Shown in pieces: positions 26,259 to 34,572 of a stretch of 64,000 bases of DNA. Numbering within the stretch: position 1 is the first letter of the stretch; each line of letters starts with the position of its first letter. Where the stretch lies: positions 36,410-100,409 of the forward strand of contig CALZJF010000004.1 in assembly GCA_945787885.1 (NCBI GenBank). Direction: 5' to 3'. The stretch is from an uncultured Bacteroidales bacterium. GTDB taxonomy: Bacteria; Bacteroidota; Bacteroidia; Bacteroidales; Bacteroidaceae. The notes beneath the pieces were generated by a model, which saw only the letters and a list, made by a program, of their open reading frames with translations, did not search any database and was not told the DNA's origin. A program made the position numbers and the translations under genes.

Positions 26259-26708
26259 TTATTCGCTCAAAAGTTCCTTGACTTTGGTGCTGATAGCGCG
26301 GCCATCGGCTTTGCCAGCGAGGGCTTTTGAGGCAACGCCCATCACTTTGCCCATTTCCTTGGGAGAAGTGGCACCCACCTGTGCGATGATTTCACGCAGC
26401 GCAGCAGTGAGCTCTTCGTCGGTGAGGGGCTTGGGGAGGTAAGATTCTATGACTTCTACCTCTGCCAACTCACTTTCTGCAAGGTCGGGGCGGCCTTGAT
26501 CCTTATAGAGTTGAGCAGTGTCGCGCCCTTGCTTAGCCAATTTTGCCAGAATCTTCAGAGCAGCGTCGTCGGAAAGTTCGCCATTGCTGCCCGGAGCAGT
26601 CTTGGCCTCGATGAAATATTTCTTGATATTGCGAAGTGCCTGCAAGCGTACTGCCTCACGGGCCTTCATAGCCGACATGATGTCAGCACTGATAGTTTCG
26701 AAAAGCAT
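26259..26708 (-). CDS. yqeY: GatB/YqeY domain protein
   Basis: The 149-residue protein has the standard YqeY length and composition (MLFETISADIMSAMKARE, then IESYLPKPLTDEEL, GKVMGVASKALAGKADG). The fold is the tRNA-binding tail domain of GatB, but free-standing YqeY proteins have no proven role. Its position right after ftsZ is the usual Bacteroidales order. The 131-base gap after the second ftsZ contains no terminator, so it is probably in the same unit. Confidence 0.93.
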   Translation of the reverse strand: MLFETISADIMSAMKAREAVRLQALRNIKKYFIEAKTAPGSNGELSDDAALKILAKLAKQGRDTAQLYKDQGRPDLAESELAEVEVIESYLPKPLTDEELTAALREIIAQVGATSPKEMGKVMGVASKALAGKADGRAISTKVKELLSE

Positions 26709-26839: not shown

Positions 26840-28150
26840 TCAATTAAGAATTTCCTCCTTATAGCGCAACGACTCCTCACGGAATTTTCGCATGTCAATC
26901 TCTGTGCGGTTTAGCACATCATTGTTCTCAATCATCGAAACGAGGATTTCATCGTCGAGGTCGGAGTCTTCAAAGATATAAACGCGGCGATAGGAACGGC
27001 GCTTTTCAGCACCCTGATAGGCCACTTCTCGGCGGATAGAGAGGCGTTGCACCTCATCCTGCTGCTCTGCCGTCAGAGGCGAATGAACCACAATCTCCTC
27101 CTCCTGCCCGGCATACGTCTTGAAACCCGATGCCAGGATAGTCACTTTCACCGACTCGCCAAGCGAAGCATCTTCAGACAGACCATATTTTGCATCGACA
27201 TCTCTGTTGAAATTACTCATAAACTTATCAACCTCGTCGATTTCGCTCGTCAAGATTCCAAATCCCGACTCGTCCGGCGGACCGAAAATGGCGATTCTCA
27301 GACTCTTGCTACGAAAGATATCGCGGTCGTTGATAAGGGGAGAGTTGAGGGCTTCCTCTATGGCTTTCATGACACGGTTCTGTCCTACGCCGAAGCCCGA
27401 CGACATCACTGCCACACCACCGCCTTTCAAGCAGGTCTCGACATCGCGAAAGTCGAGGTTTATTCTGCCGTGCATGGTGATGATCTCGACGATGCTTTTC
27501 ACGGCTTTCGTCAGCGTATCGTCGGCCTTCTTAAAGCCATTCAGGAGGGTGAGGTCAGGGTAAATCTGTCGCAGACGTTCATTATTGATGACAAGCAAGG
27601 CATCCACCTCATTCGCCATGCACTCCACGCCATCAAGAGCGAGGTCAATGCGCTTCCGCATTTCAAAGAGGAAGGGGATGGTGACTATGCCAATGGTGAG
27701 AATGCCGCGCTTCATCGACTCGCGAGCAATGATGGGTGCGGCGCCCGTACCCGTTCCTCCGCCCATTCCGGCCGAGATGAATACCATCTTCGTCTGGTCG
27801 TCAAACATTCCGCGTATGGCCTCAATGTTCTCTTCTGCCAGCTTTCTGCCAAATTCAGGCTTTCCGCCAGCCCCAAGTCCCGGTCCTAACTGCACGCGGT
27901 GGCTGATGGGGCTATCGTGCAAGGCCTTGCTGTCGCTGTTGCAGACCAAGAACCTTACGCCTTCGATATTTGATTTATACATATTGGCAACGGCATTGCC
28001 GCCGCCACCGCCCACGCCAATCACCTTGATGATGTTGGGGTCATTCTCGTTCACCTCGACTTCGGGCATTTCCACCAGCAGGCCGTCGTCATCCGGGTTC
28101 CGTATTTCCCCTTTGGAAGTGGGGGTATCAATAAGCAAATCTTCGTCCAT
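26840..28150 (-). CDS. ftsZ: FtsZ paralogue 2 (tandem copy)
   Basis: This is a second FtsZ-like tubulin GTPase, 436 residues from MDEDLLIDTPT; the frame is open 57 bases further upstream. An acidic N-terminal extension (1-38) precedes the core. Nucleotide-binding loops are intact: GVGGGGGNAV (46-54), GLGAGGKPE (91-99) and GGGTGTG (130-136). The catalytic T7 loop NLDFRD (231-236) keeps both Asp. After TIPF the usual FEG is FEM. The C-terminal tail (VYIFEDSDLDDE...) resembles that of its neighbour but ends differently. By eye it is a little over half identical to the FtsZ encoded 93 bases upstream. It should polymerise; a modulatory role in ring assembly is inference. Confidence 0.93.
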   Translation of the reverse strand: MDEDLLIDTPTSKGEIRNPDDDGLLVEMPEVEVNENDPNIIKVIGVGGGGGNAVANMYKSNIEGVRFLVCNSDSKALHDSPISHRVQLGPGLGAGGKPEFGRKLAEENIEAIRGMFDDQTKMVFISAGMGGGTGTGAAPIIARESMKRGILTIGIVTIPFLFEMRKRIDLALDGVECMANEVDALLVINNERLRQIYPDLTLLNGFKKADDTLTKAVKSIVEIITMHGRINLDFRDVETCLKGGGVAVMSSGFGVGQNRVMKAIEEALNSPLINDRDIFRSKSLRIAIFGPPDESGFGILTSEIDEVDKFMSNFNRDVDAKYGLSEDASLGESVKVTILASGFKTYAGQEEEIVVHSPLTAEQQDEVQRLSIRREVAYQGAEKRRSYRRVYIFEDSDLDDEILVSMIENNDVLNRTEIDMRKFREESLRYKEEILN

Positions 28151-28243
28151 ATCTAAAAGTTTATACGTTTCTTTCTCAACAAGCTGGCAAGGCAAGTCTT
28201 TCAACATCGCCCACCTTCATCTCATATAATAGATAGGGGCGAA

Positions 28244-29512
28244 TCAATTGTTAGGCTTAAAGCTTTTGCTCTTGATGTCAGCTAAATTCTCTTTCGTTCG
28301 GCGACTGGTCGCAACGGCTTCCACGAGTGCCACGAGTTCGTCGTTCTCGCAATCCTCGGGTTGGAAGATAAACGTCTTGTAGAAATGCTTCCGCACGCCA
28401 TGATTATTTGTATAACCATAGAACTGCGAGCGGCGTTCCTCATATTCTTCCTGTTTCTCCTTGTTCTTTTGCACTTCAGCGGCAGCCTCAGCCTGCTTCT
28501 TTTCCTGCATACCGGCGACGGCATTGATGCCGAAGCCCGTAGCGAGAATCGTCACTTTGACCTTCTTGCCAAGCGAAGGATCCGTGGAAAGTCCGAACTT
28601 CGTCTCCACATCGTCGCGGAATCTGCCCATGAAGTCATGGACTTCATTCATTTCCTCCATCATCAATTCAGCCGATGTGCCCTCCACGCCCGTTTCGTCT
28701 TCGGCGAAAGTGATAGAAAGCAGTATCTTGCGCGAATTGAAGATGTCGTTGTTATTGAGCAATGGCGAGTGAAGCGCCTCATTGATAGCCGCCGTCACAC
28801 GTCCTGTGCCCTCTCCGAATCCCGTTGACATGAGTGCCACGCCGCCATCGCGGAGCACGGTCCCCACATCCTGGAAGTCGAGGTTGATGATGCCATGCAT
28901 GGTGATGATTTCTGCAATCGACCGTGCAGCAACGCTCAGCGTGTTGTCTGCTTTCTGGAAAGCAGAACGGATGGTGAGGTCAGGATAAATCTCGCGCAGC
29001 TTCTCGTTGTTGATAACGAGCAAGGCATCTACCTCCTTGCGAATAGCATCGACGCCATCGAGTGCCTGATCAATTTTCTTGTTACCCTCAAAGCGGAAGG
29101 GGATGGTGACAATGCCCACCGTCAGAATGCCCTTCTCTTTTGCTTCATGAGCAATGACGGGCGCAGCACCCGTTCCCGTACCACCTCCCATACCGGCAGT
29201 GATAAACACCATTTTAGTGCCGTCGTCGAGCATTTCCCGTATGCGGTCAATGCTTTCCTCAGCGGCTTTCTTGGCGCGCTCAGGCCGATTGCCGGCTCCG
29301 AGACCTTCATTGCCCAACTGCAGGCGCACCGGCACAGGACTGTCCATCAAAGCCTTGCAGTCCGTATTGCACACCACAAAGTTTACGTCATGAATACCCA
29401 TGCGATACATGTAGTTGACAGCATTGCCGCCGCCACCGCCAACACCGATTACTTTAATTATTTGGGGCGTCGTCGTGGGAACTCCCATATCGACGATAAG
29501 TTCTTCTTCCAT
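28244..29512 (-). CDS. ftsZ: FtsZ paralogue 1, cell division GTPase
   Basis: The 422-residue protein lies directly after ftsA, the standard position for the division ftsZ. Motifs are GVGGGGGNAV (24-32), GLGAGNRPE (70-78), GGGTGTG (109-115) and T7 loop NLDFQD (210-215). The segment VTIPFRFEGNKK carries the canonical FEG turn. FtsZ polymers form the division ring scaffold at the inner membrane. The C-terminal linker is short and rich in Lys, Glu and Gln; it ends KSKSFKPNN with no DIPxFLR-type tail, so FtsA binding must use another sequence. Confidence 0.96.
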   Translation of the reverse strand: MEEELIVDMGVPTTTPQIIKVIGVGGGGGNAVNYMYRMGIHDVNFVVCNTDCKALMDSPVPVRLQLGNEGLGAGNRPERAKKAAEESIDRIREMLDDGTKMVFITAGMGGGTGTGAAPVIAHEAKEKGILTVGIVTIPFRFEGNKKIDQALDGVDAIRKEVDALLVINNEKLREIYPDLTIRSAFQKADNTLSVAARSIAEIITMHGIINLDFQDVGTVLRDGGVALMSTGFGEGTGRVTAAINEALHSPLLNNNDIFNSRKILLSITFAEDETGVEGTSAELMMEEMNEVHDFMGRFRDDVETKFGLSTDPSLGKKVKVTILATGFGINAVAGMQEKKQAEAAAEVQKNKEKQEEYEERRSQFYGYTNNHGVRKHFYKTFIFQPEDCENDELVALVEAVATSRRTKENLADIKSKSFKPNN

Positions 29513-29634: not shown

Positions 29635-31026
29635 TTATCGTTCATCCTCGCCTTTTTCACTGACGATGTCAAGGATCACCTTCTTCGCCTTGCCGAAGAT
29701 TCTTGAGAAGGCATTCGGACCTTTCTTTTCCGGCTCTTCCTTCTTTTGTTTATCTGCAGTGTTTTCTGCAGACTGCTGTTCCTTTTCCCCGTCGTGCACT
29801 TCCTGCTCCTGCAGCTGTCCTTCAGACTGAGTCTCATTATCTTCGTTACCGAAGAGGTTAAGCTCTCCGCCGTAGCAGTTCGTCATATTGCTGTCAATCA
29901 GAGCCAGTCCAACATTGAAGATTCCACTGTCGTTGAAGTTTCTGTCGCTGCACTCCACCTTCAGCCGTGCCGAGTGCTTCACTTTTCTGAAGTTCCACTC
30001 CTTGAAATGCGCCTTAAAGGCATTGTCAATACCCTTCAGTTGCGCGCCGCCCCCCGTGAGCATAATGCCATTTACGAGGTTATCGCGCGTAAAGCCAGAG
30101 CGTTCAATCTGCGCCTTCACGTTTTGTACAATTTCTTCCACGCGAGCGTCGATGATTTCCGCCAGTTCGGTCAGCTTTTTCACGCGTCCGCCATCACGCA
30201 GCTGCAGGGTCTCCGTCTCGCTGATGGTGTCGAAGTCGGGATAACCATGTGTGAGCTTCAGGTTTTCAGCCTCATCCAGCTCCACGTTGAAGACATTGGC
30301 AATGTCGCGCGTGATGCTGGCACCTCCGAGCGGAATGACGCAGAAATGCCTGAGCAGCTTTCCGCGATAGACGGCAACGGTGGTCGTCTCGCTTCCCATA
30401 TCTACGAAGGCACATCCCGACGAGCGTTCCTGCTCCGTCGTCAAGATACTTGCCAGGACATCGGCACCGACAAAGATGCGTCCGTCAGCGATATCTATCT
30501 GTGCGCGGCGGAAGCAATGGTGAATGGTCTCCAGAATCTTGCTTCCGCAAATGATATTGAGGAAGCGTGCTTCAATGCGCGAGGTCACTGCGCCCTTCGG
30601 GTCGAGCGTCACCTGCGCGGGCGACAACTGATATTCTATGGGAATCGCCTTGATGATTTCATGGTCAGCCATGCGTCCCTCATTGTTCTTCACGGCAATC
30701 GAGGCGATGAGCTCATCGGTCACCACTTCGCTGCTGGGCATCTGCATGAGCACGCTGTTCGCCACGGAGCGCAGCCCCATACATCCGACAGCCGTATAGA
30801 AGAATTTGATATGGCTTTCGGTCACGCCCTCAAGATGTTGCTTGATGCTCGTCAGGCAAGAGGTCATCTTATCGACGTTCAGCACCCGTCCTTTGGAGAT
30901 GAAATCAACTGAAGACACAGCAATATGGGCCTTCACCTTGATGGTTCCGTCGCTATCCTTGCTGCCCACGATGCCCGTCACCTTCGACGAGCCAAGCACG
31001 ATGGCAGCGATGAAATGATTGTTCAT
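29635..31026 (-). CDS. ftsA: Cell division protein FtsA
   Basis: The 463-residue actin-like ATPase anchors FtsZ to the membrane. It begins MNNHFIAAIVLGSSKVTGIVG with the phosphate-1 motif. The 1C domain follows (VDFISKGRVLNVDKMTSCL), then CAFVDMGSETTTVAVYRGK (phosphate 2) and GIMLTGGGAQLKGID (adenosine loop). A long Gln/Glu-rich linker precedes a C-terminal amphipathic helix (AFSRIFGKAKKVILDIV), the membrane-targeting helix. It starts 12 bases after the ftsQ stop and is followed by ftsZ after 122 bases. Confidence 0.95.
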   Translation of the reverse strand: MNNHFIAAIVLGSSKVTGIVGSKDSDGTIKVKAHIAVSSVDFISKGRVLNVDKMTSCLTSIKQHLEGVTESHIKFFYTAVGCMGLRSVANSVLMQMPSSEVVTDELIASIAVKNNEGRMADHEIIKAIPIEYQLSPAQVTLDPKGAVTSRIEARFLNIICGSKILETIHHCFRRAQIDIADGRIFVGADVLASILTTEQERSSGCAFVDMGSETTTVAVYRGKLLRHFCVIPLGGASITRDIANVFNVELDEAENLKLTHGYPDFDTISETETLQLRDGGRVKKLTELAEIIDARVEEIVQNVKAQIERSGFTRDNLVNGIMLTGGGAQLKGIDNAFKAHFKEWNFRKVKHSARLKVECSDRNFNDSGIFNVGLALIDSNMTNCYGGELNLFGNEDNETQSEGQLQEQEVHDGEKEQQSAENTADKQKKEEPEKKGPNAFSRIFGKAKKVILDIVSEKGEDER

Positions 31027-31038
31027 ATATCTATATTC

Positions 31039-31794
31039 CTATTTTTTTCTGTTATTGATAGTTTGACGCTTCCGCGCAATGACGCGCCCCTCATAGGCGA
31101 CGCTGATTTCGCTATATTTATGCCATCCCACCTGCGGCATGATGGTAGAATAGAAGGCACGCAGATTCGCGAATTTCTCCTCCACGCGTTCAATCCGTCC
31201 GAAATGCACCACCTGATCGCCCACTCTCATGATGAGATCGACCTCGCGGTTCGGCCGCACGACTATTTGTTCCACCTGTTCATCCCAGAACTCGTGGGCT
31301 CTGAGGTATGCGCCGAGTGCGAGCAACTCCCGTTTGGCGAAGTCAGGCGGTATGGTTCCCGTCGCCACAGCCAGGTTTGCCTCATAGCCCTCAGCCTTCA
31401 TGAAGGTTCCCTCCTCGTCGATGTAGTAGTTTCCGCCCTTGTCGTCCATGACTCTGAGCATCGGAATGCGCTGCTCCACGAGTATCCGCACGCGTTCGTT
31501 CGGCGTTATCGTGCAGATAGCCCTGCGAATGAAGGAGTCGCGCTCCAGCGTCCGCTCCAGAAGCAGCGGATTTATGTCGCGCATTCTCACTCCCACGGGG
31601 TGCATGCCCTCCTGCCGCAGCGCATTTTCTATGCCGGCAGCAGAAATCAGCGTGGCGTGCAGACTGTCAATCACCGTCACTTGCAACGCCTTACATGGCA
31701 GCAGATTCTCTGCACGGCTATATCGCACCACGGCGAAGACCAAGTAGGCCGCCGCCGCTATGAGGAGTAAGAAGTTGAAAAGGTGTTTGAGCAT
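31039..31794 (-). CDS. ftsQ: Cell division protein FtsQ/DivIB
   Basis: The 251-residue protein starts at MLKHLFNFLLLIAAAAYLVF, a single N-terminal membrane helix (5-22); the longer frame start ten codons upstream is less likely. A POTRA-like domain follows (VIDSLHATLISAAGIENALR, GVRMRDINPLLLERTLERD, RAICTITPNERVRILVEQR) and then the beta domain. FtsQ links early cytoplasmic and late periplasmic division proteins. It lies between murC and ftsA as in other Bacteroidales. Confidence 0.9.
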   Translation of the reverse strand: MLKHLFNFLLLIAAAAYLVFAVVRYSRAENLLPCKALQVTVIDSLHATLISAAGIENALRQEGMHPVGVRMRDINPLLLERTLERDSFIRRAICTITPNERVRILVEQRIPMLRVMDDKGGNYYIDEEGTFMKAEGYEANLAVATGTIPPDFAKRELLALGAYLRAHEFWDEQVEQIVVRPNREVDLIMRVGDQVVHFGRIERVEEKFANLRAFYSTIMPQVGWHKYSEISVAYEGRVIARKRQTINNRKK

Positions 31795-31844
31795 GGAGAA
31801 AGGGAAGAAAAGAGAAAGTGGCACGCCAGCGCGGCAAGAGCATG

Positions 31845-33215
31845 TCAGCGCGCCAGCAGGATATCAGTGATTTCCGGGCAGAGATTGTCGGCATCGCCCG
31901 CTCCGAGCACCACGAGCACATCGAAGTCGGCAGCCCGCTCCCGCACCAAATCGAGCAGTTTCGCCTTCTCCGTCATGGTCTTTTTCATCTCAGGTCTGAG
32001 GCGGTCGTAGATGAGCTGTGAGGTGACGCCGGCTATCGGCTCTTCGCGTGCGGGATAAATGTCAAGCAGTATGACCTCGTCGAGCAGGCTGAGGGCATCG
32101 GCGAAGTCGGGGTAGAAGTCGCGCGTACGCGTATATAGATGAGGCTGGAAGATGGCCGCCACACGCCGCCCGTCGAACACTTCGCGCAGACTGAGTATGC
32201 TCTGCCGGATTTCTGCCGGATGATGGGCATAGTCAGAGAGGAACACGAGGTCGTCTCTGCGAATCTTGAAATCGAAGCGTCGCACCACTCCGCTGTATGT
32301 AGCCATCGCCCGGCGGATAGTCTCAGCGTCTGCACCCGCCAGTTGTGCCAGTGCCATGGCAGCAATGCCGTTGTCGATATTGATGCTCACGGGCACCCCG
32401 AGCTCTATGTCGGCAATGTTTCCGAAGGGCGAAACGAAGTCGAAGACGATGCGTCCGCCGCCGATGCGAATGTTCTCCGCGTGGAAGTCGCCCTCCGTCC
32501 GGCTGTAGTCGTAGCGCCGCACGCCCTCCTGCAGCCGCTCCTCGAAGCGCAGTCCGCGGTGAACGATGAGTGCACCGCCGGGCTGAATCAGGCTGGTGTA
32601 GTGGCTGAAGCTTTCCAGATATGCCTCCTCCGTGCCGTAGATGTCGAGGTGGTCGGCATCAGCACTGGTGACGACGGTGGCATAAGGTCTCAACTGATAG
32701 AACGAGCGGTCAAACTCATCAGCTTCGATGACGACGTAGTCGCTCTGGGCATCAATCAGGCAGTTCGTACCATAATTCTTCGCTATGCCTCCAAGGAATG
32801 CGCTGCATCCCCCCTTGCTTTCCCTGAGCAGATGGGCAGTCATCGCCGACGTCGTGGTCTTGCCGTGGGTTCCGGCCGCGCAGAGTCCGCGTTTTTCCCG
32901 TGTCAGGAGTCCGAGCACGGCAGCACGTTTCATCACCTCGAACCCCCTCTCCCGAAACCATGCCAACTCGCGCGAGTCGGCAGGAATGGCGGGTGTATAG
33001 ACCACGATGGTGTTCTGCGCATCGCGGCAGGCATCGGGTATGAGTTCTGGATTGTCTTCGAAATGCAGGCAGATGCCTTCTGCCTCCAGGGCATCGGTAA
33101 GTTCGGAGGGTGTCTTGTCGTAGCCTGCGACGAAGCAGCCCTGCGTATTGAAATATCGTTCCAAGGCGCTCATGCCAATACCGCCGGCACCGAGGAAGAA
33201 GAAAGATTTTTTCAT
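31845..33215 (-). CDS. murC: UDP-N-acetylmuramate-L-alanine ligase
   Basis: MurC adds L-alanine to UDP-MurNAc, the first amino acid of the peptidoglycan stem. The 456-residue protein starts at MKKSFFFLGAGGIGMSALER with the dinucleotide-type loop (9-16); the ATP loop AAGTHGKTTTSAM is at 113-125. Further family motifs are YVVIEADEFDRSF and DYAHHPAEIRQSI. The upstream 24 codons of open frame are rejected. It lies 50 bases before ftsQ. Confidence 0.97.
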   Translation of the reverse strand: MKKSFFFLGAGGIGMSALERYFNTQGCFVAGYDKTPSELTDALEAEGICLHFEDNPELIPDACRDAQNTIVVYTPAIPADSRELAWFRERGFEVMKRAAVLGLLTREKRGLCAAGTHGKTTTSAMTAHLLRESKGGCSAFLGGIAKNYGTNCLIDAQSDYVVIEADEFDRSFYQLRPYATVVTSADADHLDIYGTEEAYLESFSHYTSLIQPGGALIVHRGLRFEERLQEGVRRYDYSRTEGDFHAENIRIGGGRIVFDFVSPFGNIADIELGVPVSINIDNGIAAMALAQLAGADAETIRRAMATYSGVVRRFDFKIRRDDLVFLSDYAHHPAEIRQSILSLREVFDGRRVAAIFQPHLYTRTRDFYPDFADALSLLDEVILLDIYPAREEPIAGVTSQLIYDRLRPEMKKTMTEKAKLLDLVRERAADFDVLVVLGAGDADNLCPEITDILLAR

Positions 33216-33300
33216 TTCACGAGTGATATATATATGTTTTCGCGTTCCGAGCCGCTGCTTCTGCATTCCCCGCGCAAGGGGGTGCATGGGCGTGCCTGCC

Positions 33301-34422
33301 TCACCTCATCTTGCCCGTCTTCGCCAGTGCTATCACCTCCGCCGCAATATCATCAGAGGCGTTGGGCTTTCCGAGGGTCTTGACGTTGGCGGCTATGGCA
33401 TCGAGTCTCGCACTGTCAGCCACCACCTGTATCGCCGTCTCGATGAGCGTCTCCACAGCCTTGTCGTCGCTGACGCAGATGGCAGCATCCTTTGCCACGA
33501 GTGCCATGGCATTCTTCGTCTGATGGTCTTCCGCCACGTTCGGCGAGGGCACCAAGATAGAGGGTTTGCCGAGGAGGCAAATCTCGCTGATGCTCGAAGC
33601 TCCCGCCCTGCTGACGACGAGGTCGGCAGCGGCATACGCCCGGCTCATGTCGGTGATGAACTCCATGACTTTCAGATAGGGCGGCTGCCCCTCCACTCGC
33701 AGACGCTGCTGAATCTCCTCGCTGTAGTATCGTCCCGTCTGCCAGATGAACTGCACGTCGGGGTTGCGGCGGATGGTGTCGAGATGGCGGAGCACGCTCT
33801 CGTTGAGCGTCCGCGCGCCCAGACTACCGCCCACGATGAGCACGGTGCGCTTCGTGCGGTCGAGTCCCAGCTCTTCTATGCTGCTGCCGCGGCTGAAGGC
33901 ATCGCGCACGAGGTTCTGCCGCACGGGGTTGCCCGTGAGGATGATGCGGTCCTTGGGGAAGAATCGCTCCATGCCCTCGTATGCCACGCAAATCTTCCGT
34001 GCATGGCGTGCCAGGAGCTTGTTGGTCACTCCCGCATAGCTGTTCTGCTCTTGCAGGAGTGTGGGGATTCCCATTTGCTGACACACCTGCAGGGTAGGTC
34101 CGCTGGCATATCCGCCGACGCCTACCGCCACGTCGGGCCTGAACTCCCTGACGATGGCGCGTGCCTTGCGTCTTGACTGCCAGATTTTGAAAAGCACGTT
34201 GATGTTTTTCCAAAGATGGGCGCGGTCAAATCCTGCTATGGGCAGTCCGATTATCTTATAGCCTGCCGCCGGGACGCGCTGCATCTCCATGCGGTTTTCG
34301 GCTCCGATGAACAATATCTTTGCCTGGGGCTCTTTCTCCCGAATGGCATTGGCGATGGAAATGGCGGGGAAGATATGTCCGCCCGTACCGCCGCCGCTGA
34401 TGATGACTCTAAGTTCGCTCAT
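33301..34422 (-). CDS. murG: Peptidoglycan GlcNAc transferase
   Basis: MurG transfers GlcNAc to lipid I to form lipid II at the inner face of the membrane. The 373-residue protein begins MSELRVIISGGGTGGHIFPA with the GGGTGGH loop (10-16). VGVGGYASGPTLQVC, LLQEQNSYAGVTN and LVVSRAGASSISE are the other family signatures. The frame is open 12 codons further upstream, which I leave out. It is the first gene of the cluster here; ftsW, murD and mraY, which usually precede it, are absent upstream. Confidence 0.97.
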   Translation of the reverse strand: MSELRVIISGGGTGGHIFPAISIANAIREKEPQAKILFIGAENRMEMQRVPAAGYKIIGLPIAGFDRAHLWKNINVLFKIWQSRRKARAIVREFRPDVAVGVGGYASGPTLQVCQQMGIPTLLQEQNSYAGVTNKLLARHARKICVAYEGMERFFPKDRIILTGNPVRQNLVRDAFSRGSSIEELGLDRTKRTVLIVGGSLGARTLNESVLRHLDTIRRNPDVQFIWQTGRYYSEEIQQRLRVEGQPPYLKVMEFITDMSRAYAAADLVVSRAGASSISEICLLGKPSILVPSPNVAEDHQTKNAMALVAKDAAICVSDDKAVETLIETAIQVVADSARLDAIAANVKTLGKPNASDDIAAEVIALAKTGKMR

Positions 34423-34572
34423 GGCCTTAAAGATATGAATACTAAACATGAGTGGCATTTACCTTGCCAGCATCGGTTGTGGGTGCAACATCGCTGTGCG
34501 GGGAGCGGAGCTTTTCCTTTCCACTGCCCTTCCGTACATCAGCACTCAAGCAGGCTGTAAGGACTCTGTTTA

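Follow-up and report, generated by a model that had tools for sequence, protein, structure and literature searches.

A tandem pair of ftsZ genes in the division cluster of Alloprevotella

The window analysed here, a 64,000-nucleotide stretch of contig CALZJF010000004.1 from an uncultured Bacteroidales bacterium, carries two ftsZ genes in a row after ftsA, which raises the question of whether the second is a working paralog, a decaying copy or an artefact of assembly. The nearest named proteins include those of Alloprevotella, whose members live in the gut and mouth (for example P0100, of 433 amino acids, from Alloprevotella sp., and P0053 from Alloprevotella sp. oral taxon 473), and from its sequence the window probably belongs to this genus. 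The Alloprevotella ftsZ pair is real, old and under selection.

Distribution and selection of the pair

The order ftsZ1-ftsZ2 is identical in 23 genomes, including the single-contig assembly G004, and is also found in a public record (L032). The window's own genome assembly consists of 96 contigs and is 91% complete, which leaves room for a second ftsZ produced by misassembly or contamination, but this explanation is refuted by the same gene order in those other assemblies, and the FtsZ1 and FtsZ2 paralogs moreover fall into separate clades of the tree; we give it practically no credence. FtsZ2 evolves about threefold faster than FtsZ1. Relaxed selection, a broken frame or catalytic loss, as expected of a pseudogene, were not found: the ratio of nonsynonymous to synonymous substitution rates (dN/dS) is 0.12–0.35, the reading frame is intact and the aspartates are invariant. 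These values bear out a preliminary description of this DNA, in which neither copy was thought to look dead, and together with the 23 genomes they dispose of the two outcomes it had named as fatal to its proposal, an assembly artefact and a decaying pseudogene confined to one strain. It had also asked whether relatives keep both copies, and many do, with ftsZ2 missing from 14 of 40 genomes of the genus, in several separate places; those genomes are evidently viable. Where the second copy is lacking, the FtsZ that is left evolves faster in most lineages. FtsA evolves very fast in the genus, with a tree length of 11.5 compared with 2.2 for FtsZ1 (19 species).

Domains, termini and locus layout

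All features described here lie on the reverse strand. The slow-evolving canonical copy, ftsZ1 (28244..29512), encodes 422 amino acids, and the fast-evolving paralog, ftsZ2 (26840..28207), encodes 455, both supported by open reading frames and profile matches. The Tubulin/FtsZ GTPase domain and the FtsZ_C domain exceed the Pfam cut-offs in both products (PF00091 at 147.3 and PF12327 at 48.3 bits for ftsZ1; 129 and 34.3 bits for ftsZ2), confirming the earlier claim of two complete genes after ftsA. The ftsZ1 product exceeds the TIGR00065 cut-off, and the ftsZ2 product scores 290.6 against an equivalog cut-off of 295.2 bits. GGGTGTG and an NxDxxD catalytic loop are retained in both copies, as had been described; in FtsZ2 these are the nucleotide-binding T4 loop GGGTGTG (27743..27763) and the catalytic T7 loop NLDFRD (27443..27460). 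The AlphaFold2 model of FtsZ2 has the FtsZ fold, with a core predicted local distance difference test (pLDDT) score mainly above 90, and all 50 of its listed PDB matches are FtsZ (target template modelling score 0.76–0.92).

FtsZ2 begins with an acidic extension (residues 1–59, 28031..28207) that is predicted to be disordered. An inner ATG at 28150 would give an alternative product of 436 amino acids. The C-terminal 50 residues of FtsZ2 (26843..26992) contain the Bacteroidales C-terminal peptide, YIF..DLDDE..LV.MIE....NRT, and tail alignments place this partner peptide of the order in FtsZ1 as well as FtsZ2. Residues 411–455 are modelled as a largely helical block (pLDDT 82–91). An 18-residue helix test detected no membrane anchor of its own in FtsZ2, and a self-anchored FtsZ, in which a terminal amphipathic helix replaces the C-terminal peptide, was rejected.

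The two genes are separated by 36 base pairs (28208..28243), within which AGGTGG stands immediately 5' of the first ftsZ2 ATG. A promoter-like match on the coding strand (28254..28226) agrees at 9 of 12 positions; since 12 matches of such quality occur across 6.1 kb compared with 5.2 in shuffles, it is weak evidence. Upstream lie ftsA (29635..31026; TIGR01174 above cut-off), ftsQ (31039..31824; named by position, relatives having a match at the corresponding site), and murC (31845..33287) and murG (33301..34458), both named via syntenic relatives. The gene downstream of ftsZ2 is yqeY (26259..26708).

A candidate mixed ring and known two-FtsZ systems

The two genes run in the same direction, and their products share a C-terminal peptide and conserved T4 and T7 loops. 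A heteropolymer of FtsZ1 and FtsZ2 in one mixed ring is plausible on these grounds and is the reading we favour, and the corresponding proposal of the preliminary description is partly supported. One locus would yield two GTPase-competent FtsZs with a common C-terminal peptide that co-assemble, the conserved FtsZ1 serving as backbone and the fast-evolving FtsZ2 as tuning subunit. We infer that the pair would co-polymerise, turn over GTP and bind FtsA.

A heteropolymer or modulator logic applies to chloroplast FtsZ1/FtsZ2 and to the extra FtsZ of alphaproteobacteria, for which independent origins are expected. The single in-cluster FtsZ of Bacteroidales resembles the pair in ftsA synteny, often with yqeY too, in domain order and in the C-terminal peptide. 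Searches of the open-access literature turned up no account of tandem ftsZ genes in Bacteroidales. Like Alloprevotella, a small number of bacteria have a second FtsZ that may be subfunctionalised, but an excerpt of PMC9871819 places their additional copy outside the division and cell wall (dcw) cluster, whereas the Alloprevotella copy lies inside it, directly after ftsZ1, and is an exception to the placement stated there. Parts of PMC4164004 refer to multiple ftsZ genes in plants, and more distant FtsZ-like families are, from its excerpt, the subject of PMC2875224. Archaea with dual FtsZ likewise have two complete paralogs per cell, according to an extract of PMC12583498. In the same extract, OdinFtsZ1 of Odinarchaeota binds the membrane directly via an N-terminal amphipathic helix and OdinFtsZ2 via SepF, a section heading states that OdinFtsZ2 co-pellets with OdinFtsZ1, and direct membrane binding is mentioned for Mycoplasma and chloroplast FtsZ. 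Descent from the archaeal FtsZ1/FtsZ2 duplication was rejected, as both window copies group with Bacteroidales FtsZ, apart from the archaeal outgroup (a single row, L033).

Multi-FtsZ arrangements in Bacteroidales

In the window's family, off-cluster FtsZ paralogs carry a C-terminal amphipathic helix instead of the usual peptide, and their T7 loop is often NRDF(C/N)D (L044, L047, L060, L082, L083, L085, L088-L091, L093, L094, L097, L098, L100, L104; also L042, L063, L156). They are possibly self-anchored and possibly mobile. One genome (G387) has four off-cluster paralogs; short contigs carry three of them, and two are almost identical. In other Bacteroidales families (L116-L129), tandem or triple ftsZ genes lie inside the division cluster; the C-terminal peptide is still present in the last copy, and the tails of the earlier copies are basic and FtsA-like, which suggests direct membrane anchoring of FtsZ in FtsA-bearing bacteria. 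By analogy, the Odinarchaeota pair with its differing tethers (PMC12583498, in part) is the closest working analogue of this helix-tailed/adaptor split. A second ftsZ after yqeY in G229 (L130) has a broken nucleotide loop (GGVVGTG) and an odd tail, and is possibly a decaying copy. Two distant FtsZ-like proteins of about 325 amino acids (L155 in G016, L159 in G368) have GGGTGEG replacing GGGTGTG and look alike by eye. FtsZ-like GTPase domains are also scattered in Bacteroidales genomes (L160-L166), mostly as short proteins of 166–252 amino acids, with two of about 400, one fused and one repeated.

Taken jointly, and as a tentative reading that we place somewhat short of probable, Bacteroidales may repeatedly have turned the Z-ring into a machine of several FtsZs at the native division locus. 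Extra copies in several families would carry an FtsA-like membrane helix where the FtsA-type C-terminal peptide used to be, setting self-anchored beside adaptor-anchored FtsZ; Alloprevotella would combine two adaptor-type FtsZs in the cluster, a conserved backbone and a fast tuner, some species (e.g. G022) having a third FtsZ with a helix tail elsewhere, and FtsZ1 evolution would accelerate on loss of the tuner.

Bacterial division is usually pictured as one FtsZ and one ring. A genus in which the ring gene has been doubled in place, kept by most lineages and absent in several, is a natural experiment on the benefit of two FtsZs, of which the faster FtsZ evolution in most single-copy lineages forms part.
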